Assembly (NCBI GenBank): GCA_037833965.1
Contig: AP031357.1
Location: 19,550,001 to 19,614,000, forward strand
Direction of reading: 5' to 3'
Length of the DNA: 64,000 nucleotides
Source: Marchantia polymorpha subsp. ruderalis
Lineage: Eukaryota > Streptophyta > Marchantiopsida > Marchantiales > Marchantiaceae
The notes under the pieces are model-generated. The model searched no databases and was not told the DNA's origin. It saw only the letters and a list, made by a program, of their open reading frames with translations. Both the position numbers and the translations under genes were made by a program. Of this stretch, positions 21,362-61,107 are shown one piece after another (the stretch's first letter is position 1; each line of letters starts with the position of its first letter).

Positions 21362-23690
21362 ATGCTTTTGACTTTCAGTAATTTTCTAACAATAAAAGAA
21401 AAATCTACTCTCGTATCTAAGAAATCTGGTCCGGATGGAAAACCAAAAATCCAAATTTCTCAAGACTTCAAGAAGTTAAATGACGCCACTAAGAAGGACC
21501 ATTATCATATCCCATTCACCGATATGATTTTTGATATAGTAGCAAGTCAAAAGCTCTGTAGTTTTATGGATGGTTACTCAGGTTATAATCAGATTTTGAT
21601 CAGAGGATCAATTGAAGACGGGGTTTACAACAGAAAGTGGAGTATTTGCCTTTCAACAAACGGTGCAAGGAGGTTGGTCTAAAGTTACATCCAGGAAAAT
21701 GCTATTTTGTTGTGACAGAGTAATTTCTTTCGATCACAAAGTATACAAGAGAAGTATTGAGGTGGATTGGGATAAGATTGCAGTATGGTTAGCCATTTTG
21801 TTTCCTACCAATGCTACTAAAGTCAAGCAATTTTTTGGCTACGGGAGCTACTACATGCGATTCAATGAGCACTTTGCTAATTTAGCATTTTCATTGATTT
21901 GCATGTTCAGGATTGATGTTGATTTTGAATCAATACCTACTAGTATGCAAAGCTTCAATGATTTAAAGCAACGGCTAGTAGAAGCTCATGTTTTTATGGT
22001 GCCATATTGGAGTAAGGATTTTCACTTTTTTGTACATGTGTCTTGCTTTTGCATGGATGTGGTTCTGAGCCAAGTTGATGAGAACAACAAAGATCATTGT
22101 ATTTACTTTGTCAGTATGCTGTTGCCTGCAGCGGAGAAAAACTACTCTTCTATTGATAGAGAAGCTTTTGGCATCATTTACTTTTGCAAGAACTTCATGC
22201 ATTATTTGCTAGGGTCTAAGGTGATGTTTCATACATATGATAATACATTTAAATACATGATGAAAAGCTTGATCTTATAGAGAGAGTGGCTAGATGTATG
22301 CTTCTTCTTCAAGAGATCATCTATGAAATCAAGGTGAGGCATGGTAAACAACATATCAATGGTGATTATTTTTCAAGGATTGATGGAGGAGAAGATGACA
22401 AAAAGATTGATGATGTTTCTAATGAAGATTTATTTCAAGTGAAGTTAGTTCAGTCCACATGGCATGGAGATATCATAGGATTCTTGCACAATGTGATCAT
22501 ATATAAAAAGATGAATCAAAAGGTGGCAACAGTTTGCATGAGAAAAATTTGAACTTATTTGTTGATGAAGGAAGTTTTGCACAAGGAAGTAGTAGATGGC
22601 AGATTGAAAAGGTGCTTAGAGAAAAGAGAAGTAGTAGTGGTAATGAGGGCATTACATGAAGAGGATGTTGGTGAACATTTGCTTTAGCAAACACAACTAA
22701 AAAGACATTGGATGTGGCGTGATGATGGCTCACAATTCACAAAGATGTTCATCAATTTGTTACAAGTTGTGATGCTTGTCAAAGGTTGGTTAAACCACTT
22801 CATTCATGTCATCATCCGTTGACTTCACATCTGCTCTTGGCCCTTTTTGAAAATTGGAGGATTGATTTTATTGGATCTATTACTCATGTCACCGAGTAAA
22901 GAAGAAATAGGTATATTCTTCTAAATTCACAACTATGGATGATGCAAAACAGCAACCAAGTTTCTATATGAACAGTTTTTTTGCAGGTTTGGCCCACCTT
23001 TAGAATTTGTGAGTGATAGGAAAAAGCATATTTTTGAATCAAACTATGCAAGAAATGACCACATTGTATCAGATCAAGCATTGCAAGACTACTCCGTATC
23101 ATCTCAAGGCAAATGGGCTCGCTGAACGAGCTAATGGCATCATTGATAAGATAGTCAACAAGACAATTACGGTGCACAAGACAGATTTGAATGTGAAGTT
23201 ATTTGCTGTTGTGTATGCCTATAATTTGGTTTACAAAGTCACTATTGGTCACACCCCTTATTACTTGATTTGTGGACAACATTATTCTGTTCCAGTCGAA
23301 TTTGAGGCATCTTCTTCAAAGATCAGTGTGGAAAAAAGAATTTTTACCGATCAGAGTTTAAGCTTGACGGAAATATGCTCTTGAAAAGTTAGAAAAAATG
23401 AGGATGCAATCAATTGTTTGTTTGGAATAACAACAAGCAATCACCAAGAAGTCTCATGACAAAAAATTCAAGTTTTACTCCATGAATACAAGTTTGTTCA
23501 TTTACTAGGTAAGCTCCACACTTGTTGGCTAGTACTGTATGTGATGCAAGTTATTTTTGCAAATATCCCGGTTCAAGTTACAGGTGTAGAGGAAGAAATT
23601 TTACCAGTGAGAGTGCATTTTGATAGACTATAAAAATACTATAGTATGTAGTGTCCGCAAGGACGCTTCACATTTTAGAAGAGGGCTATG
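21362..23690 (+). mobile_element. Degenerate Ty3/gypsy-type LTR retrotransposon (pol remnant)
   Basis: Reading + in order, with stops and frame changes: a reverse-transcriptase start at 21362-21682 (DFKKLNDATKKDHYHIPF, then FMDGYSGYNQI); then, after a jump, the thumb and RNase H region at 21700-22280 (VISFDHKVYKRSIEVD, LLPAAEKNYSSIDREAFG, FMHYLLGSKVMFHTYDN); then LLLQEIIYEIKVRHGKQH at about 22300; an integrase zinc-binding trace near 22770 (SCDACQR, ENWRIDFIGSI); and integrase core traces at 22990-23380 (FGPPLEFVSDRKKH, TPYHLKANGLAERANG). The polymerase YxDD core is missing between the first two blocks. A purine-rich patch near 23675-23690 may be the polypurine tract. No LTR pair was recognised. 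The element is dead but its family is clear. Confidence 0.9.
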
Positions 23691-37621: not shown

Positions 37622-40600
37622 TTAAGCTTCAGAGATTACTTCCTCGTCATCATCCGATTTAGAGATAAGGTTCAGATCGACATACTGCATTGATTTCGCT
37701 GGTTTTGCTGGTTGATTGCATATTTGTTTGGTCTCCTGAATCTCAGGCGTATCGGTTGCATCGGAGTCAACTGTATCCAGCTTTGCAGCTTCCGCGGGTT
37801 CAGCAGCCAGCTTAGCTGCAGCTTCTCCAGGTGGAGGGTGATCAAATCTGCAAGTCGATCCATACTTGCAAGCCCCTGTCTTCAAGTAGTAGGCACACAT
37901 GGTTTCCCCCTGCAGAGCATAAAAACCATGGATGTTACAATCCCAATCCAAAGTATCAACATACTGAAGAGTTATGTGGGAGTAAGACCTGCATTGAAAA
38001 AACTGCATACAAATGACCAAGAATAGTAGATTCAACTCGAGCGGTTTGAATAGGGGTAGCAGAGCGCAGAGCCATGAACCCTCAATGTAAAAAGCAGCGA
38101 ACGGCAGTAGAAGAAATTAAGATTATAAGCATATGACACCAAGAGCATCACTGAAAAAAAAATGTTTGATAAATAGAGGAATAAGGGATGAACGTGAAGC
38201 CGTATCTGGAAATATGTACTATATTGTATTGTATTTTATGGTATGTGCGTACCACAGCCCGCGCCGTGGCCGAGCAGTGCTAATATGAAAAGATCAGTTG
38301 TAGAAAATATTATGTGAAATGCGAACTGCGCAATAACACCACAACATTCTACAAGTATATAGCATTGCCTGATGAGGTGATCGACACAAGACTGCGTTTG
38401 GTGTCTCTCAATCAGATATGAGAAGCAGCCGAATGAGAAGTACACTCTGAGGTATGAGTGTTGCCGCGGACCACATGATTTGTGCAGTCTGGAAGGGAAC
38501 CACTTAGGAGCAGACATCAATCTGTAAAGCAGGCGCACGGCAGTTTGTAACAGGCGATCAGATTAAGCACATTTTGACGTGAAAATTTTATATTTTAGGC
38601 AGCAGGTGATTGACAGTGTGGGTTCAGCGCCGGAGGTTTATCGCACAAGACAAAGATCGAAGGACTTACAACGAAAATTTCCACAAATATACAACATTGG
38701 AGGGAGCTGGACTCATACCCGACAAAGGCTTCAGAAGAAAACGTCCAATCAAGAGAAAATAAAAGCCCAACATCTACGAATAGTTCTAAAGGTAAGAAAG
38801 ATGAATAATGAAGCCGACGAACTGAACAGTAAAACCTAGTAACAGGTACAGAGACGGAAGGAGAGACGATGATCCGCGGGCATTTTAGGGTAGATCTACC
38901 CTAGAAATGACTGCAGCAGATGAACTGGAGATATTGAATGTGAAGGGGGTTTCTTAATCTGAATAACGAGAGTGAATAGAACTCCAACTAGAAAAACCTG
39001 CCGACGTCAACAAAGCATATGAAACGATCCTTGTTGACGAGCACACTGCAAATGGACCAACAACCAAGTCATGCGATCGGTGAAAATATTCAAACATGCA
39101 AAATAACCAAGCAGGAAACAACTGCAGAATACTCGGCCGTATTTGAGCGGGGTCTGGTAATAAACAGATCCCCTAGTCTCCACAGCAACCGGCTCCATTT
39201 AAATGACACGTTTATATTTACATGATAGCCTCGTGCGCTCAAACCGCTCGTCATGTTCCAAAAAGGGCATGATTGTGAAAACACATTTTGAGAATTTCCA
39301 GAAGTATGGACACGGATAATATGAACTACAGCATGAGTGGTAAAGACAGAAGGTGTGAAATTTTGAAACTCAGAGATCATGAAATGCGATAACATGAGTG
39401 AGCGAGAATACAGGCTATAAACCAAACCAACAATCATTATAGTACACACAAGAGCAAGTACGAGCAAAATGTAGCCACAATTTGGTGTACTCAAAAGACT
39501 TTGACTGCACTATGATCTCCGATTGTTCATAGTACACCGCTCCACTTCAATCAAGAAAGGTATGATCCACAATGATCTAGAGATAATAAAACTGTAGAAA
39601 ATAGGTGTAGACCAAGCACGTACACTCTTGCAAAGAGTCCTCCAATCCAGTTTACAAATGTGAACGTACCCTTCGATTACCAAACCCCGGGATGGGGGAA
39701 GTAATTGAGCTATTTCTGAAAAAATTTAATGCGTACACATATTCTCTTCCGGAAAGAACGTAAGATCTTTGTCGTAAGAAGAAAATCTTTTGTCCTCGTC
39801 CCCATAAATTGGACTGCCTAGATACCCCTGAAATCGGGACAATTCCCCAGTAAAAAAAATACGAAGGTTATAAGCTTGACATACCTCTCGTCTGGGTAGA
39901 CCCGCCAAAGTAAGTTTGGGCGCAACTCTAGGTATAGTAGGCACCCTTCCAGGAGGATGATGAAACTTGCAGGACGCCCCAAAGCTGCATTCTCCAGTTT
40001 TCAGGTAGTACTGTACGTTTTGACAAATAAGTCAAGTTCAAAGAGCATGTTCGTCAATACCTGCTAAAATTGTAAGCAAGATATCTCTCATCTTCAAGCC
40101 ATCAATTTGATGTGAAATTTTGTTTCTCGTATTGACGTATGCATATAGATATATATGATGTATCAGAACAGGTCTCCGCAATGATGGACCGACACAAATG
40201 ACGAACTCAATTACCTTGGAAGTACAAATATAAAACCCAGAGGTTTGACCTCTTTCATAGCACGCATTATCTTATTGACTTGCAACCGAGTAGGACTTCC
40301 AGTAAGATTGAGTTTACTTACAGAACAGTCTGGATCTCCAGGTCTCTGCGGATGTGGAGATACGGGTAATATTGCTCCGCCAGGCTGCGGACAAAGATGA
40401 AGTTAATACACGTAAGTGTAAATCAGAAGTTGAACAGCAAGACATGATAGTGACAGGAAAGATTCAAAATAGATGCATCTGCAATGCACTCTAAAATAAC
40501 CTCGTAAAAGAAGAGCAATCTTTTCTTAGAGCCTATCTGTATCTTGGAATAGAGATACAGCAATCAGAATGTAGCATGAAAAATATACATACAAAAGATA

Positions 40601-43600
40601 GTTAGATGTTGTGAGATGCAATCATACTTCACCAAGAAGTTATCATCAATGATGACTCCTGAATATTTTCAAAGGAGCTTACATAATTGTGATAGTCTCA
40701 AATCATGAGCAAAAGTGGCAAGCTCAAGAGCTTTAGTTTCCTACTTGTCCCTATGTTCCTAATCACGACGGGTATAGAAAGATCCCTAGAGAGATAAAGT
40801 GGGTTCAGGCACGGCTGTAAGGAGGAAGGAGCACAGGAGGTCCCGCATAGTTTATACCACTCACATCTACTTTCACTGGAGGGGACGTTTCTACAGACAG
40901 TGCGTCATTTATGGGAGTTTGCTCTGGCATGTATTTCCACTGTTGCTGGTATTGAGCCATTACAATAGGTGTTCCTTCAGCTACTTTCACATTTGCCTGC
41001 TGTGGCAAATACGACCACTGGTAAGGAGTTGTTCCTGTGGCTTGTCCAGCACTGACTGTAACGTCCGCTTGTGTCTGCGGACATTGCCAGTGTTGCTGAT
41101 ACGGAGAGGATCCTAAGGCGAGTCCAGTAACATCATTGACTCTCGTGTCTGTCTGTCCAAGCGGGCACTGCCACTGCTGCTGATACTGGGATGCTGCTAA
41201 AGTTGATGTCGCATCCCCGTAACTAGCACTGCCATAACCATGCCACTGTTGTTGCATTGCTGTGGTCCCTAGAGCCGATGCATCGTTGACTCTCGCGTCT
41301 GTCTGCGGCGTGCATGACCACTGTTGCTGGTATTGAGTAGTCAAAGTATTGGATGCATCGCTCACTTTCATTTCTGTTTGAACGGGCTGTGGATATTGCC
41401 AGTGCTGAGTATAAGTTGGCAACTTCGATGCCGATGAATCACCCGCTTTTGCATCAGTCTGGGTTGGAGCAGTCTGCCATTGCTGTTGATACGAGGATAT
41501 ATTTACAGCTGACATCTCATTTGGTTTTGTTTCTGCCAGCGCCGTTTGGCATTGCCACTGCTGATAATAAGCAGCAGCTACAGCTTGTGAATCATGCGAC
41601 TTCATGTCCGCCTGCAACGGATTTTTGTTGTCTGAGTTGAAGAGTCTATGGCCAAACTATCAGACACACTTTCTCTATATTCTGTTTCCTGGGTAAGTGT
41701 CAGATTAAAGCAAGCGTTTCGGAAAATAAGACGGTGATTGTTCATGACATTATAAAGTTCTTACAAAGATCAATTCGATGAGCTTCTTCTTATACGAGGA
41801 GGTATGGCTCCGATCTTCATGAGTTTGGACTTTTGGAAACCTAAATCAATGAAATATCTTAGAAATTTTAGATAGATTAGACAACTCAATTTGTTCGTAA
41901 TCCAGAATGATAACTATCGACACCTGTAAAGAGGTTATTAAGCATGAAGAAAACATTACCGTAGCGTATGTCACTTGTTGTCCCATATTAGTGAGTTGAA
42001 TTTGAGATGGATAGCTCCCAGTGGCTGCGTATGGCATCTGGGGCATTACGTTTGGAGACTGATGACTCTGAGTTGGCACAGGCGCTCCTGTTCTCCTACC
42101 TGCGCAATGAGAGATAAGTGTGGAACGATCAACACTGGATTTACCCGATGGGAGTAGCTTCATATTATGCTGTCTAGCAGATTGAGATAACAGCAATGTA
42201 TCCGCAAATTTGATATTGACTGAGACGGATAAGAACAATACACATGAGGAAAAGAATGCTGAGAGTAACAAATGACGGAGACCCAAAGACAATGCAAAGA
42301 AAATGCAAATAATATGCAAATGACAAAACTTGAACAAGTCATCGTTACACCACATTTGCATGCAGATCGTGGGAGGAAATATGCTAAAATGGCAGCGGAC
42401 GGAGACAAAATGATCGGATTCGCAAAGATGGATAATAAATCAGACGTTACTTGTCAAAAGTTCAAATTGAACATAGACAGTGTAAATTTTGTAATGCGTA
42501 CAGCGATAGGTGAACCCAGATGAGAACTGAAATTTACTTACTGGGGATTTCCGGATGATTAAATCTACAAGTAGCTCCATACTTGCAACTGCAACCACAC
42601 AGACAAACGTTAAAATGAGCGTTTGCACACCTCAGACTTAAACCAGCAATGAAACTACAATTCTCTAGATTGAAGGAGCTTCTGCTCGTCAAAAGTATAT
42701 ATGGTGTCTCCATCTAAGGAACTTTTGTCAATGAGTTAGTCCACTTTACCGAAAGGCAGAAACATACCTTCCTGTCTTCAGGTAGAAAGTGCATTCGTTC
42801 TCACCCTGCAAAAATTAGTCCAGACCATCATTAAAGTATGTGCTGTAAATAGTTTAGAAATACTCGAACCTTCTAGTTAAGTATAAATATGTAGACTTTC
42901 GTCAGAGAAGGACAACCTAAAGACCTTACTGTCATACAGAATACGGTAATTAGAGTAATTAAACAATCTATCCTCTATATCTTTATATGAAATACAGAAG
43001 CTAAAAGTTATGTAAAAAGAAACTTCGCATGCCTTGATCTCAAGGCATGCGATCAAGGAATCTTCATACTTGCTAAGCTTGAAGTGATTTTTTACTAGTA
43101 AGATCAAAAACAAGGACTCAATAAGAGCAGCGGGAACTATGTACACATTGGCTACTAGACTGGCGTAATTAACACATTTGTATACCTGTCTCAAAGGTAA
43201 GCCTTTTGAGTTCAGAGGGGCTGATTTTGCAGAACCCCTATCTCCCATTGAATGTCCTTTCATCTGAACTCCTCCTGAGGTCGTTTTGGAAGTACTCGTT
43301 GCCGTAGTCCCATTGTTCGCTGAAGTTCCATTTGCTCCGGCAGTTCCATTTACTCCGCCACCTGTATTTTTAGTAGCTGCCTCGTTTTGTGCACCTTGAG
43401 AACCCTCTTCTTTGCTACTTCCAGCTGAGTCAGCTGATGTTTCACGTCTTTCCTTGGGATGGTTAAACTTACACCTTTGCCCATACTTACACTCACCTCT
43501 CTTCATATAAAACTGCAAATCCGACACAGCAAATCAAGACCAAGTACATCAGTACTTAGCATTCGTTTGCTTTACGGGATGATTCAGATCAGAAAATTTG

Positions 43601-46600
43601 AAAGAATGACTATAAAACAAGCCTATATCTAAAACTTATCGGTAAACAAAAAGTCTTCAAATAAGGTAAAAAGTCTTCAATAGTCTTTATTGGTTGGTTA
43701 CGGCGTCAAAGAGTCAGTTTGAAAAAAAAACTTACTGAACAGTTGGGCTCCCCAGGTCGTTGAGGCAGATTTGCAGGATCCGTGGCCGAGGCGGCATTTC
43801 CTGATGAAGTGACCTGTAACCAGTCATCGGATTGAAACTTTGGTATGTTCATCAACGCTAGACAAGATAATTAATCGAGTCCCTTAGACAGACAAGTAAT
43901 ATGGAAAACTGCTATTGTATATACAATCACAAAATGGTAAACATGAGGGACTGCACAAACAACTGCATTAGTACACCTAAAACGCACAAAACAAAGGCAG
44001 AGAGAAACACACGAACTAATCTACACGGTGGAATTTGAATGCAGTAGCATACCTCTTTCCAATTTGGTATGCCTCCAAAAGGCACCCAAGCAGGGTGATC
44101 AAATTTACAAGTGACTCCAAAGCTGCAAGTACGTGTGGTCATATAGAAAGAACAAAGCTTTTCTCCAGGTCTCTGTGGATAGAAGGCAACAGTGCCAGCA
44201 CTGTCCGGCCGTGGCCGCTTAGAATACAAGTCAACTGATTGCAAGGCTTCACGTTGCAGACAAGTCATTTATGTGAATAGTAACCACGATTATTCAGAAC
44301 GTTTAAATAAGCATAACATTCCAAAAACATTCCAAAAAGAGCAAAGGATAGTAATGTGCATCCCAGTGATAAAACATCCATTTAGTTTCAATAACCAGCG
44401 AGAAAGAAAAGGTGAAATGAACGAATTATTTCAAGTTTTGAAATATAAATATGATACCGTAATATTGCAGAATACCGTTTGGAGAAGAGCGAAATATGAA
44501 ATGAACCAACATGGTATAGATAAACGCAGATACCAAGCAGTGTAGTAGCCATCAATTTCACCAGTAGTAATAGACGTATGTACCAATGCAATCGCAACAA
44601 GACCCATGGTCAGATAGCTGATACATATCAACGTGGATAAGTAGTCCAGTTAGATGAGTGCATATATATAGTTCAAGAACACATAACATACTACCTTCTT
44701 CACCAAGAACGGAATATACATCGGAACAAGTATTACATTGTGTAAAGTTGTATTGTCAAGTGATATAATCTCCAACTCGAGTCATCTGTTATCTTACATC
44801 ACTCAATGACATGCCTAATTTCAAGCGTATAACGCTTACGTGACATACTAACGTTAGAAGTAAGAGAAACGCTTACTAATACTCTTCCAAAAATGTCCTA
44901 GGAACGGCCGGGATACCCGTGTAGTTTTAGTGGGATGGATAAGAAGTCACGAGATTTCTCAAAATGCAGAGTATAAAACATAATGGTACTCTCTGCGTAC
45001 AAGGAACTGCGAGCAATGTTCAGACGCGAAAACGCCGTCCAAACGTCGAGGCCTCACCCATCCTGGCTGAAAAGGTTACAGCCAGTACTGAAAGCAAAAA
45101 TCTAGCCAACATCAATTTTGAGTAAAGGAACATACTGGCTTCAAGACCAAGTCAAGAAAGTAGAACGAGACCAGAAGGAATGGCATCACAAGAAATGAGA
45201 AGCTTTGCAAACCTCGGTCTGGTGGTGTGGGTTTAGGGCTATGTAAAAGAAGACCTTGGTGAAAAGGGAAACTTGACGAAAGCAGTTTGCATCTGTATGT
45301 GTACTCACAAAAATAGTGAGTCGACGTTGTTAATCTAGTCTTACAGTCAAAGCTCGATATAAGGATACGATCGGGACCGTGAGACTATAAGGATATGTCG
45401 AGATATCCTTATATTAAAGATGGCCTATTTAGACGTGAAAAAGCTGTAGAGTGTAGTCTGAATAGTTGTAGAAGTCTTGTTACAATCCATCTCGACCTCA
45501 ATCTCATCTAATGCACGCATATTGCGAATGTTCCCCTTTTGTAACTTCCAAAGCTTGACCTTGTCTAGCCGAGTGGCCAATCTTCTTCGTGAACTGGTAA
45601 GCAACTTCATGTTGTGACTGACTGGTAGTACTCTGAAAGCGCTTCGGGATAGTGCATTTCTCAGAATCGCTCCAGGCTCTATGCCGTTTCTTGTCGTCCA
45701 TTTTGGTGGTTGTGTTGTTGTGGATTTAGACGTAAAAAATACGCGTGAGGTCCAGAAATTGGGACAGTGAATCACTAAGGAAATCCTCACGGACAAGGTA
45801 TCCTTATTCTGGCGCCTAGAATCTACGGGACCGCAAACAATATTCTTATCTACGAGGTTATCCTTATAAGGAGTATCCTTATATCGAGTTTGACTGTAGT
45901 CATAAAATAATGTGAAGCGATGCAGTCCTCTTTCCGGAGCATACATCAGGGTACAAAAACTCTCCAGAGTGGAAAAGAGATGAAGAAAATAGAAAATAAC
46001 CCAGGGTCAAATTCATAAAATACCCTGGGAATCTTGAGCATGAAGAGAGGAAGACTCATGTGGGTGTAGATTTCGAAAATAGATGTAGTAGATATGTACT
46101 GGAGTACTAACGAGTGATGGCGGCGACTCAAGACAACAGATTAGAACACAAGTGACAAAATGTTTGATATTCTTGATAAAGAAATTAATGTGAGAAAAGG
46201 ACTAATTAACAGGTGGACACTGTGAGCGAGCAGACTCCATGAGTATAGCAAGGAGTAAATAGCAGTGAGGATCTATATAATTACTGTGCGTACACAAGGG
46301 AAGCATTGGTTTCCCGCCTGATCTACTCTTCAGCTTACGACTTAAGCAAATAAATCTCCAGAGGGCAAACCATGCTACAAAATGCACAGCCTGTGTCAAG
46401 GCTCCAACCACGAGGAGAATGCATACCAACCTTCATCAGAGGATCTCTTTAATCCGTTAGAAGATGAATCATACGCATAAGAATGCTGCTGCTGCTGTTG
46501 TTGTTGCTGTTGTTGTTGCTGCTGCTGCTGCTGCCCTCCTCCTAAATGCTGGGGCTGAGTGGAAGTTGGAACTTGCCCATAGGCAGGAACAATATGGTTA

Positions 46601-46716
46601 TAACTTGCAGGAGCAGCAGCTTGATACGGATTGGTGTAGCCTAGCTGAGCCTGATATTGCTGTGCCTGCTGCATTTGCTGAGGAGGATACATTTGTGGTG
46701 CTGCCGAGGAAGCCAT
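37622..46716 (-). CDS. HUA1: HUA1-like CCCH zinc-finger RNA-binding protein with Gln/Trp repeat domain
   Basis: Nuclear RNA-binding protein; Arabidopsis HUA1 acts in AGAMOUS pre-mRNA processing. Exons: 46716-46431, 44246-44053, 43813-43736, 43512-43186, 42805-42768, 42588-42542, 42099-41960, 41611-40865, 40384-40322, 40010-39885, 37909-37622; phases agree, 777 residues. Exon 1 encodes a Pro/Gln-rich head with 16 consecutive Gln. Five C-x8-C-x5-C-x3-H fingers: 127/136/142/146, 185/194/200/204, 300/309/315/319, 639/648/654/658 and 687/696/702/706. Order and linkers follow HUA1 ([44 protein letters not shown]), but Arabidopsis has six fingers; the third is absent. Residues 371-619 form a Gln/Trp repeat domain that I do not know from other HUA1 proteins. 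The tail is acidic ([11 protein letters not shown]). Read-through of the splice donor at 40864 would end at TGA 40805-40807, a form lacking fingers 4 and 5. Identity is firm; function is inferred. Confidence 0.94.
43026..43051. repeat. Near-perfect 26-bp palindrome in an intron
   Basis: Arms CGCATGCCTTGA and TCAAGGCATGCG are exact reverse complements separated by two bases. It lies in the intron between exons 4 and 5 of the CCCH gene. Confidence 0.85.
45344..45896 (-). mobile_element. Short Tc1/mariner (pogo/Tigger-like) transposon with TA target duplication
   Basis: The left end starts CAGTCAAAGCTCGATATAAG at 45344 and the right end is its inverse, ending TTTGACTG at 45896. The inverted repeats are about 24 bp and differ by one inserted base. 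Both ends are flanked by TA (45342-45343 and 45897-45898), the target duplication of Tc1/mariner elements. The 553-bp element is too short for a transposase gene, but the minus-strand frame ending at 45425 closes with [13 protein letters not shown] and a Phe-Phe tail, like the C-terminus of pogo/Tigger transposases. So it is an internally deleted, non-autonomous copy. It sits in intron 1 of the HUA1-like gene. Confidence 0.88.
46484..46535 (-). repeat. CAG/CAA triplet repeat coding polyglutamine
   Basis: A mixed CTG/TTG run on + encodes 16 consecutive Gln residues in exon 1 of the HUA1-like gene. CAA interruptions should make it more stable than pure CAG. Length variation between strains is likely. 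Confidence 0.9.
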
Positions 46717-55803: not shown

Positions 55804-58800
55804 ATGAAGGAAAGCCCAGGTTCTGGAAGGAGAAAGCTGTCTCAGGCAACAGAGACAGATAGTGGAGGCAAGGACGCTCTGTCACCAAAATCTTTGGAAA
55901 AAGATGTGACAAAAGTGGAAGCTGGAGTGAGCGATGAGGAACCGATAGAAGTGAAGTGTATCGGAGAAGTTATCAAGCGTTCCAACAAAGGAAAGGCTGA
56001 ACGCAAGCATTATGGAGCTTTTGAGGTCGAGAATACTCGTTATGCCCTGGTGCGTCCTCATCTCTGTCTCCAATTTCTCGCAAAACTCTTAAGGTTTAAG
56101 CTTACAGCAAATTCCGAATTCCAAGCATAATATCTGTTTCATATTTTTCATTGACAAAACCTGATGTTGAAGATGTATATTATCATCTAGATGTACTCCT
56201 GAACAATTTCTTGTCAACAAAGGCAACACTGGGTTATAAAATCAGTAGTAGCTAGAAGAAATACAAGAGATCTACTTAAGGTTCACTTAAGAGAAGACAT
56301 GTAGGACTGAGAGCAGCTTCATATTTTGCCGACTACCAAATCAGTGATGAGATTTTTCAAATACCCGTGTCTCACTGCTGGCTTAGAACTTGTGTCGATG
56401 GTCTGGATCAATGGATATGGGGAAATTTTCGAGGCTGCATAACTCGGGGTGCAAATGTTACCTTCTGTGTTTCGACGAATGTATGTAGACCCGCAGGCTA
56501 GATCCGCAGGCTACACAGGCTAGGCATTCTAATACGGCTAGAGCGACTGGGTTCATGGAAACACAAACTGGAAGTTTCTCGATTCAAGATCTGAAAGTAC
56601 ATGCTGTTTTCTTGAAGCTTTGAATTTATTATGAATCAATCGTCCCTTGCATAGTTCTGAATAAGAAAGGCTGAAAGTGTGTTTACTTTATGCTAGATAT
56701 CTGACCTTTCAAGTGCATGGGTTTTCCCACCTGCAAGAAGTTTCACAAACTGCCGTTAAATTTGTTCTTGTTGTATTTTGTTGCTAGTAATGCCGTTGAA
56801 AGTATTGCTTGTAGGAAAGTCAAGCTATCTGTCAGTCCACACCAGATGATGGAATGTTCGACAGTCAGTCAACTTTTATGTAGAGAGTAGAGGAGACATG
56901 TCACAGTTGAAATCGTTGTAAGTTGCTAGCCGAAGTCACTCAAAAGTTCTCAGACAGTTTTCTTCAAGGATATAATTTCTGGTGCTTGAAAGCTTAATCG
57001 AATTGTACTGCAGGAGGAGTCAGTTCTTGTCGCTCCAGCTGAGTCGGGACAAAAGCCATATGTTGCCATCATCAAGGTACTGATTATATTTGAATTCGGC
57101 CTCGTCACCTGTTTTGAGTTCAAAGTGGTTCATGTGTTTGTTACAAGTGCATTGTATTTCGAGTTCGAAAGATACCCGTCCAATTTTTTTGCCTTTCACA
57201 GACAACGAAGATCTTTAAGTTACCATATCAGCTTTGGATGCATGTCGCTCTTCATTCAGTATGGAGTATAATGGAGTTTATGGAGATAGTGCGTACTGAT
57301 CATGAGGGCTTTGCAGACATTATGTAAGCTTAGATAGAATACATTCGTACATTCTCAAGGCATCACCTACGGTGTGAGAGCGTAACAGCAATCTTGGTTG
57401 CAACGTTGAAACTGGAGTGTGAATTGGTGTCCGTTGGGCATATATGCGAACGTAGGGAGAGAGGGTGTGTTTTTGCAACCCAGTTTTTTTACTGGATCTG
57501 AACATGAGCATTCTGTTCCTACATGTCAGGAGATCAAGCAGGCGAAAGACGGAACTGTTGCTGTGACAGGTCAGTGGTTCTATCGACCAGAGGAGGCGGA
57601 AAAAAAAGGTGGAGGCTCATGGACCTCATCTGACTCCCGTGAGCTTTTCTACAGCTTCCACAGAGATGAAGTTCCAGCAGAATCAGTCATGCATAAGTGT
57701 GTTGTTCATTTTATCCCTCCCCAAAAAAAACCTCCAATCCGGACGAAGCACCCTGGGTTCATTGTGCAGCAGGTGTATGATACAGTGGAAAAGAAGTTAT
57801 GGAAGTTGACAGACAAAGATTACGAAGATTCTAAACAAAGAGAAATTGATCTTCTTGTCCAAAAAACAAGAGATGCTCTGGGAGAACTTCCGAACATTGA
57901 CGGTGAAGAGGCTGCGCAAATTATTGACCAAGAAGAAGCAGAGAAGACTAGACGTCACAGTCGTCGGAGGATGGTCCCTCATCTGAGTATCAACAAAGAC
58001 GACTCAGGAGAAATTGTAGCGAAAAGTTCACCTGTTGAAATAACAACCAAGGCTGATGCTCCTCCAAGTGCAAAAATTGATACTCCGTCTAGCTGTAAAA
58101 CTCCAAATGCAGGATTTCCTTCGGATATAGCTGAACTACTTCATGCTAACAATGTACTAACCGGACAGACAGCGCGAGACCGGTGGCTCGAAAAGATTAC
58201 AAGTACCTTGAAGAGCGTGTTTGACGCTTCTGAGCAATCAGATACGCCGATGAAGGTCCCTGAAACAGATAATAGCACCCCCAAAGTAGATACTCCTCTA
58301 GACACAAATGACGTGAAAACCTCAGAACCGACCAACGGCGAGGGAGAGCAGAAGTTGAAAAAGGATATGGTACGTGTCTGTGCTCGAGAAGTTTCTGAAG
58401 AACAATTCAAAGTCTTAACAATGTTGATAAACAATGTCCAGTGTTCAATTTTGTGTTGCTTTCTCAAATATGAAATTATTTCTAGACCGAAACATGTGTT
58501 TTTGACGACATTTGCACTTTCGGTTGAGATTGAATTTTTGTCTTGAATTTTGGCTTTCTAATGAAGTAAGCACTCTCTATTAGCCTCCTATGACAGTCAT
58601 TTACTGACGTAAGTACGGTGGGATACCTAAACATGTCAAGTTCAGTTTTCCATATCGATTCAGCTTGCAACACGAAGTAATCTAGGGCTGGACTCAAGCT
58701 GATTTGCCGCAAATGATTCATCTCTTATTGTCAATGTACATCATAACCTCTACATCGGCTTTAATTATAAGCTTATTGTACAAAGTACACATATGTGGAT

Positions 58801-61107
58801 GGGCAGGTTGACGGCGTCATTGTTTGGCCAGAATCGGCCATCTCTGCAGCGAGTGCTTTGGAAAAATTTGCTCATGAGTTTCATGATACAGATCACCACA
58901 AGTACAACTTGAAAATGCGCCAGCTAGATTTCAATCTTAAGGTACTACTCAACACGATGCAATGGAAGTTATTTGTGTGGATTGAAGTCGAGCACTGGGA
59001 CATATCCCTCGCTTTATGACAGTGTAGACCTGAAGCTAATTCCATTCATCTAGAAACAAACTCTATTCTTTCAGTGAGCGCAACATGCTTGAGAAACTAC
59101 GCTCAATATTAACTTGAAGTTTGACATCAGTACTCTGAGTGACGTTTTTCCTCACGTGTCCATGAAGGAATCGTGATAATTTAACTTGAAGGAATCGTGA
59201 TAATTTAACTTGACGTTTAGTATTCTGAGATACGATTTGAGATAAGATAGGGAACGAAGACTGTATAAGTAGCAGTGAGGGATATGTCTCGAATACTTCA
59301 AGAGATCCGTTTTGTGTGGTTTTTTGCAGATGTGCATGTATTGTATGTTGCGATTTATGAATTAAACGTCAACCTGATTTGTGAACCTGATTTGGAATGT
59401 TGGAAACAGAGGAGTCCATGCTTGGTACGGAGAGTGCTGAATAAAGAACTAGAGCCGGGTATAGTATTTCACATGACTCCTGTCGAGTTGAAGGTAAAAT
59501 CAAGACTACGAGCATTTACACCATTTAGACTGGTTTGGGATATGTTGTCATTTACGAGAGTCTTTTCCTCCTCTAAACGATCGGAATCTTTCTTACAGGT
59601 CATGAAGATGCATTGCTTTTAGTGAGCTATTCATTGCCGTTCTTTCAAGTTTACCGCTTAGGTTTCTGGTTGATGGTATCCTTTTTATGACATGTGCATA
59701 CTAATGAATACATGTTGAAACACCGTAAGAGTTTAGCATGCAGCGCATGCCAGATAGCCAAGTGTGCGTTTGGAGAGATTTTCAGTTACTTTGGTTTCTT
59801 GTCTTAGCGGGCTGTGAAAGATACACATAGGTTCAATTCCATAGTTCTTTCAAAAGATACGGGAATCACTTAGATTTGAGTCATCTTCATTTATGCAGGA
59901 TGGACTTACCGCAGCAGAGAAAAAAGCCAGAGAGCCCGCTGAGCTGCAAACACTGCAGGTGAGTCAAATATTGAGCTCACAATCTGTTCATTGGTGATGA
60001 GCACTATATCTATTCTCGTGTTAACTCATATTTTGAATTTTATTTTTAAAGATGACGGATGCACGCTGTGGTATTTGCGGGGAGCGCGAAGTAGGTGTCA
60101 AGGACATCATACAAGTTGGATACGGTGATAGATATCAGGTCTGCCGTTAAACTCAATTCATTATTTTGCTGCCGTGAAATCTTTCAAAAGACGTCTTGGT
60201 AACTTACACGGACATATATCCGAATAATGTTTTCGGGTTCTTTCATTGGTTTCCTGGGCGTTAAGAAAATTGTACTGTGCACTTGTCAATCAGGTTGTAT
60301 ACATATCAGTAAAATTTACGCGAAGTTACTACTACCGTTGTACAATCTCTCTTCAATACTGCACAAACTCTTCATACTATCCGCGTAATATATATCATAG
60401 CTTACCTAGCTGAACAATTTGCTGGGTCATAGTTGAACAGTCTAAAGGTTGTCTAAAGGTTTGGCCTTCTCAGTAAGCTGGATAGTTCTTAGCCGATATA
60501 ATGTCCGGACAGCCTCCACATTCTGATAATGATTTTGCACCGCTTTGTAATGTAGCTGGAATGTCTCAAGTGCGGACACTCATGGTATGCATCGAGAGAT
60601 TCTGTGTCTTCATTGACAACAGGACCTGCTGATATTGTAAACGCTAGTCCTACAGTTGGCCTAGCACCCTGGGCAACCTTGAAGTTTGAGGAGGTGGAGA
60701 AAGAGTTGATCAGTCCTAAGGGAGAGGCAGAGAAACCTCCAGGAGCACAAGAAGCCCTGTCCACGCTTGATTCAAAGAAAGAGGGAGACGAGACACGGGC
60801 CCCCGTATCACATTACCAGGACGTGGAGAACAGCCTAACAGAACACATAAATTTACCAGCACACATGCCATCTAACGATCATAGCAAAGTGGAGGATCAA
60901 GTAGAGAAGAAAGCAGCATCTGAGACAGAGATCAACCCTACAAAAGAGAAGGTGGACGTGCCAGCAGCGGCCCACACCATGGACGTTGTCAAGTCCAAGG
61001 AAGAACAAAAAGCTGAGATTGATAGTAGTGTTGAACGGACGCCAACTTCAATCACCGCTGACAAAGTTGCAAGCGAAGCAGCAAAAGCTGATGTATTTGC
61101 CAAGTGA
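55804..61107 (+). CDS. AIPP3: BAH and TFIIS-central domain protein (AIPP3/BDT1-like chromatin reader)
   Basis: Plant AIPP3-type BAH proteins read repressive histone marks and affect transcription and RNA processing in the nucleus. Exons: 55804-56049, 57014-57076, 57530-58369, 58807-58941, 59410-59493, 59899-59958, 60052-60138, 60556-61107; every junction is phase 0, giving 688 residues. Acidic head, then BAH domain at about 50-195 (ESVLVAPAESGQKPYVAIIK, GQWFYRPEEAE, ELFYSFHRDEVPAES, KHPGFIVQQVYD). TFIIS central-like region at about 300-475 (VLTGQTARDRWLEKI, HKYNLKMRQLDFNLK, LVRRVLNKELEPG). Then a CxxC pair at 482/485 and another at 508/511 (ARCGICGE, LECLKCGHSWYASRD), a TFIIS-type zinc ribbon. 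The tail of about 170 residues is low-complexity, Lys/Glu/Ala-rich. An alternative ending uses a donor at 61104 and an exon at 61273-61420. Identity is firm; function is inferred. Confidence 0.93.
59163..59210. repeat. Perfect tandem duplication of 24 bp in an intron
   Basis: Two identical 24-base units starting TGAAGGAATCGTG lie head to tail at 59163-59186 and 59187-59210, in the intron after the fourth BAH-gene exon. A recent slippage or duplication event. Confidence 0.9.

Follow-up and report, generated by a model that had tools for sequence, protein, structure and literature searches.

A nine-unit Gln/Trp repeat exon in a HUA1-like CCCH gene of Marchantia polymorpha and a processed copy that lacks it

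A HUA1-like CCCH zinc-finger gene of the liverwort Marchantia polymorpha subsp. ruderalis contains a single exon, exon 8, that encodes nine units of a Gln/Trp repeat, and a decayed copy of this gene elsewhere in the same genome is without that exon. The arrangement of exon 8 and the structure of the copy suggest that exon 8 is a symmetric cassette exon that splicing can omit. We put the chances at about even that exon 8 encodes a disordered multivalent docking linker, which splicing can include or leave out. The gene lies in a stretch of 64,000 nt of contig AP031357.1 (positions 19,550,001 to 19,614,000), which is called the window hereafter; the coordinates of the gene and of its neighbours are those of the window. 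The forward qPCR primer for M. polymorpha EF1 (PMC9701658) has a single match in the genome, and the reverse primer faces this match at a distance of roughly 90 bases, the 3-kb locus around it being the region examined for the second primer; both agree with M. polymorpha or a very near relative.

The HUA1-like gene and its exons

The gene was found on the minus strand, from 46716 to 37622 of the window. Its coding span (37622-46716) comprises 11 exons with GT/AG signals, which are joined in a single frame of 773 aa. The model was built on the splice signals and the reading frame alone, and the join between exon 1 and exon 2 is its least certain part. Exon 1 (46431-46716) contains the start codon and encodes an N terminus that is rich in Gln and Tyr and includes a tract of 16 Gln. 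CCCH finger 1 is encoded by exon 2 (44053-44234); finger 2 begins in exon 3 (43736-43813) and is completed in exon 4 (43186-43512), which also encodes a Gly/Asn/Thr/Ser-rich spacer; and finger 3 is divided between exon 5 (42768-42805) and exon 6 (42542-42588). Exon 7 (41960-42099) encodes the linker 5' of the repeat exon. Downstream of exon 8, the beginning of finger 4 is in exon 9 (40322-40384) and its remainder in exon 10 (39885-40010), while exon 11 (37622-37909) encodes finger 5, the C terminus and the stop codon. All of these exons are on the minus strand.

Exon 8 had been predicted to be an open exon of 249 codons with phase-0 borders, and it was recovered as such at 40865-41611 on the minus strand. 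Its borders read ttgcag/GCG and GAT/gtgagt. With a length of 747 nt, which is divisible by three, and phase-0 joins to both neighbours, exon 8 has the symmetry of a cassette exon. The distance from finger to finger across the linker is 69 residues without exon 8 and 318 residues with it.

In the Pfam analysis, the product of the gene matched PF00642 (zf-CCCH; E 2.2e-47) over five stretches, which correspond to five CCCH fingers. Several fingers of this form (C-x8-C-x5-C-x3-H) are what characterizes the plant HUA1/ZFN kind of protein. Arabidopsis HUA1 (AtC3H37) also has several CCCH fingers, but their reported number is six (PMC5575663, PMC2267713). We label the liverwort gene HUA1-like, rather than HUA1 proper, because its model predicts five fingers in place of six. 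The difference also bears on where the repeat exon lies: the placement between fingers 4 and 5 in the original prediction is right only in the six-finger numbering of Arabidopsis HUA1; among the fingers present here exon 8 lies between the third and the fourth. The tail of finger 1 (DHPxWVPxGGIPxWKE) and the PPPGE that follows the C-terminal finger are both present in this gene, as they are in Arabidopsis HUA1. The linker of the Arabidopsis protein is presumably short and is not known to contain a Gln/Trp array.

The nearest relative by score in the same genome is a paralogue on contig C3 (L010), presumably of the ZFN1 type. It has CCCH fingers of the same type, but the linker between its finger groups shows, by eye, no Gln/Trp repeat. 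Among the papers found to name both Marchantia and HUA1, none deals with this gene according to its title or the start of its abstract.

Other features of the window

Intron 1 of the gene contains an element of 552 nt (45345-45896), whose terminal inverted repeats are 19 nt long and 95% complementary. Another 28 pieces of the genome match it, with nearly full-length matches at 76-82% identity in three cases and at 68% in one; the element looks like a member of a non-autonomous DNA-transposon family. On the plus strand, an intronless open frame at 649-2106 encodes a citrate synthase that matches the Pfam profile PF00285 from end to end (E 1.8e-134). Plant genes for peroxisomal citrate synthase are usually rich in introns, so this frame may be a retrogene. 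Also on the plus strand, an open frame at 57410-58546 contains a BAH domain (PF01426, E 5.4e-14), and the open frame nearby at 60556-61107 had no Pfam match at E 0.001. An open frame at 21600-22280 of the plus strand resembles, by eye, a fragment of a Ty3-type reverse transcriptase.

Exon 8 encodes nine regularly spaced units

Exon 8 contains nine Trp, which are at residues 19, 45, 71, 98, 123, 147, 175, 199, and 225. The spacings between them are 26, 26, 27, 25, 24, 28, 24, and 26 residues (range 24-28); when nine residues were placed at random 100,000 times, no placement was as regular. Moreover, the best off-diagonal self-alignment of exon 8 scored 103, whereas 300 shuffles of the same residues averaged 36 and did not exceed 56. 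Trp spacing and self-similarity are thus far beyond those of the shuffles, and the predicted nine-fold repeat inside one exon of a HUA1-type gene is borne out.

The unit had been described as a Y-Q-Q-Q-W core usually followed by the tail Q-T-D-x-R/K-V-x-D. The core is indeed present, in its exact form in 4/9 units and as YYQQW, YTQHW, MQQQW, YQQHW, or PYQW in the remainder; for the tail, however, "usually" was too strong a word, as it is exact in 2/9 units (units 4 and 6). Trp is the sole column that is identical across all nine units, which is partly by construction, the units having been cut around each Trp. Gln makes up 17% of the exon 8 residues, Tyr 5.6%, and Trp 3.6%, and the N terminus of the protein is Gln-rich as well. 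A pure polyQ effect was rejected, because the Trp residues are regularly spaced and their neighbouring residues are constrained.

At the DNA level, identity between the units is low: the share of differing sites is 33% in the closest pair and 49% in the median pair. A DNA-level satellite was considered and rejected on this low identity and on the output of Tandem Repeats Finder, which lists no array across exon 8.

The YQQQW core looks constrained

The pN/pS ratio summed over unit pairs was 0.14 for the five core columns (YQQQW) and 0.68 for the rest of the unit. Since the units were anchored on Trp, a second ratio was obtained with the Trp column left out, and the remaining four core columns gave 0.18. 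These figures are indicative, because the core is short, the unit pairs are non-independent, the summed synonymous sites are just 44, and the core pS exceeds 1, which denotes saturation. In Q-Q codon pairs at the columns -3, -2, -1, and +1 relative to Trp, the third base differed in 36/74 pairs; over all columns and all unit pairs, 147/264 same-residue codon pairs were different. Some unit pairs had few synonymous differences, at small counts (0/5 between units 1 and 3 and 1/5 between units 7 and 9). Because pN/pS is low while synonymous change is near saturation, the YQQQ(W) core looks constrained at the protein level.

Search for relatives of the array

No second copy of the exon 8 repeat was found in the genome, where the exon as a query matched itself alone. 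When the genome was searched with the unit consensus, three matches fell within exon 8 and two elsewhere, with E values of 1.17 and 4.73. The DNA pattern of two QQW codon runs 55-85 nt apart had 18 matches in the genome, three of them in exon 8, compared to five for the reversed control; the 15 matches outside exon 8 were judged by eye and none seemed related. Exon 8 was assigned to no Pfam family (best E 0.055, with a bit score of 13.7, below the cut-off of 30), and it had no match among the PDB sequences up to E 10. On viral and prokaryote contigs, 0/2 and 0/10 candidate stretches, respectively, were confirmed as relatives of exon 8. An origin of exon 8 by horizontal gene transfer or from a virus was rejected, since such relatives were missing from the viral and prokaryote contigs and both the introns and the reading frame agree with the rest of the gene.

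A processed copy joins exon 7 to exon 9

The exon 7-9 region, used as a DNA query, had two matches on contig C9. Both belong to a decayed, intronless copy of the gene (L024:4655-5257), in which exon 7 is fused directly to exon 9 in 2/2 tandem units. The tandem duplication is approximately 200 nt long, and the two units are 86% alike across 174 nt; the second unit then continues into exon 10 and part of exon 11. This copy without exon 8 is new relative to the original prediction. The longer unit aligned to the cDNA without exon 8 with a score of 242 and to the cDNA with exon 8 with a score of 145; for the shorter unit, the scores were 111 and 93, respectively.

When the genome was searched with the cDNA without exon 8, one continuous match on C9 was obtained over query bases 989-1368 (72% identity, E 3.8e-48), and this match spans the junctions 7/9, 9/10, and 10/11. 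The search gave 75 matches, which consisted of 10 to the gene's own exons, 2 to the C9 copy, and 63 to the CAG/CAA tract of exon 1; since 40 of 67 candidates were scored, the number of processed copies is at least one. A search with the C9 copy itself as the query recovered only the copy and its parent gene.

Exon 9 was tested alone since it is short. In strict end-free scoring, the first C9 unit scored above all of the 2,000 shuffles, and the score of the second unit was reached by 289 of 2,000. In end-to-end scoring of the 54 and 55 bases that follow exon 7, both units beat 5,000 of 5,000 exon 9 shuffles, with a score of 16 for the first unit (shuffle maximum 8.5) and 13 for the second (shuffle maximum 7). 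Against the same bases, the best of 685 exon 8 windows scored 4 in the first unit and 0.5 in the second.

The two stretches of the copy differ from the parent gene at 38/168 and 79/355 sites (22-23%), and 20/38 and 50/79 of these differences, respectively, are C>T or G>A. This share is as expected of free decay, and the copy is decaying freely. In both tandem units, the copy is preceded by a stretch (L024:4642-5012) that resembles, by eye, a start-tRNA primer site, presumably of the kind used by plant LTR retrotransposons. A retroelement may have captured the gene; when the 10-kb locus was compared with itself, no flanking direct LTR pair was seen.

Skipping of exon 8 or later gain

The mRNA that was copied into C9 had probably skipped exon 8. 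The alternative is that exon 8 is constitutive today and was gained, by exonisation or by transfer of a repeat array, after the copy had been made, so that the copy predates it. This would agree with the absence of exon 8 from both tandem units, and the linker of Arabidopsis HUA1 is presumably short as well. We nevertheless regard a later gain as unlikely. The copy-parent divergence is smaller than that of even the closest unit pair, let alone the median pair, and the array was therefore probably already present when the copy arose, provided that the units diverged inside this gene; on the same proviso, the copy would have sampled a skipped transcript. Furthermore, the free decay of the copy, rich in C>T and G>A, means that its divergence if anything overstates its age, and a donor of the array was not found in the genome. 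Another route to an array younger than the copy would be the transfer of units that had already diverged in a gene since lost. A deletion of exon 8 exactly at the junction after copying is unlikely, because the 7/9 join is clean. We infer that exon 8 was skipped by splicing rather than gained later. The evidence for skipping is one processed copy, which gives no skipping rate and may record a rare mis-splice.

The acceptor region of exon 8 (41612-41641, minus strand) was compared with other acceptors, 16 in all, 10 of which are from this gene and 6 from the paralogue. Its T content at -30 to -4 was 22%, the lowest of the 16 (30-52% in the others), but its C+T content of 48% was not the lowest, as two other acceptors were equal or lower. 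The low-T acceptor is at most compatible with a weak recognition of exon 8.

In the original prediction, a transcript that skips exon 8 was to speak against the module. The C9 copy indicates that such a transcript probably existed; since exon 8 is in-frame and its core looks constrained, we read the skipping as pointing to a module that is optional rather than as counting against it.

Proposed function of the array

According to the docking reading, exon 8 would form a long, mostly disordered linker that connects the N-terminal group of CCCH fingers with the C-terminal one in a HUA1-like RNA-binding protein and carries nine aromatic docking motifs of the Y-Q-Q-Q-W type. A protein made with exon 8 could gather several copies of a partner, or of itself, on the bound RNA. 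Skipping of this in-frame exon would set the two groups approximately 70 rather than 320 residues apart and would remove the array. The splicing of one symmetric exon would then act as a switch between a multivalent and a plain protein. The FoldIndex of exon 8 was slightly negative (-0.039), which speaks weakly for disorder. That the array is disordered, that it docks partners, and that it influences RNA processing in any way is what we infer.

The array may do no more than lengthen the linker between the finger groups by repeat expansion, as a spacer that has no specific partner. Exon 8 does extend the linker from 69 to 318 residues, and the C3 paralogue carries a different long linker. A free spacer, however, would not be expected to retain nine evenly spaced Trp, nor to show a pN/pS of 0.18 in the four columns that precede Trp, and we consider this reading very improbable.

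The original prediction suggested for exon 8 a condensate-forming or protein-binding module. As a prion-like or condensate-forming domain, exon 8 would combine Gln with aromatic stickers. The Gln, Trp, and Tyr contents of exon 8 and the Gln-rich N terminus are in favour of this idea. However, PAPA-type propensities were negative in every window with a negative FoldIndex, the best being -0.04 in exon 8 and -0.03 in the whole protein, compared to a threshold near +0.05. By these values, exon 8 has no disordered window of positive propensity, as a prion-like domain should have, and the prion-like version of the idea is not borne out. In addition, an evenly repeated unit with a constrained core suits discrete motifs better than bulk composition, and a condensate-forming domain is improbable in our judgement. 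What stands of the earlier interpretation is a real repeat module whose core looks constrained.

If the array is made of docking motifs, one candidate partner is the CCR4-NOT complex, with its Trp pockets in NOT9, and the protein form that contains the array would be a deadenylation adaptor like tristetraprolin. Tristetraprolin and Unkempt, both CCCH proteins, are reported to bind effectors via several disordered motifs, Trp included (PMC12350847, PMC11009413). The tristetraprolin-NOT9 interaction is reported to be abolished by mutation of all four Trp (PMC12350847), and for Unkempt a prediction places the only Trp of its disordered region in the pockets of NOT9 (PMC11009413). The motifs of these two proteins are few and non-repeated, whereas exon 8 has nine repeats in register whose docking is putative. 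Moreover, the targeted deadenylation in vitro was reportedly not reduced in the four-Trp mutant of tristetraprolin (PMC12350847), and Arabidopsis HUA1 is described as a nuclear protein with a role in pre-mRNA processing (PMC4450054, PMC2267713). The chance that the array is a CCR4-NOT platform therefore appears slim. KH proteins seem at least as likely as partners of exon 8, because Arabidopsis HUA1 is reported to act on AGAMOUS pre-mRNA and to associate in BiFC with KH proteins, which act on AGAMOUS pre-mRNA too (PMC4450054).

Implications

Alternative splicing of a low-complexity exon has been proposed to control the higher-order assembly of hnRNPDL (PMC9842712). hnRNPDL and other hnRNPs with spliced Y/G-rich exons are like the liverwort gene in that an RNA-binding protein has an aromatic-repeat exon whose splicing is proposed to control assembly. 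The hnRNPs are mammalian proteins with Gly-Tyr motifs, whereas the liverwort CCCH protein has Gln-Trp units and its skipping is deduced from one processed copy. It is possible, and we propose it tentatively, that a plant RNA-processing factor toggles between nine-valent and zero-valent forms via a single exon, whose Gln/Trp docking repeats would be of a new class; this would be an independent counterpart of the alternatively spliced Gly-Tyr exons of mammalian hnRNPs, recorded in a molecular fossil. Reading an ancient splice choice from a processed copy is an inexpensive test, which can be extended to other exons. M. polymorpha is amenable to transformation and knockout. If the proposal is true, animals are not the only lineage in which a single aromatic-repeat exon came to toggle how multivalent an RNA-binding protein is, and the liverwort gene in question has a flowering-plant relative with a role in pre-mRNA processing.
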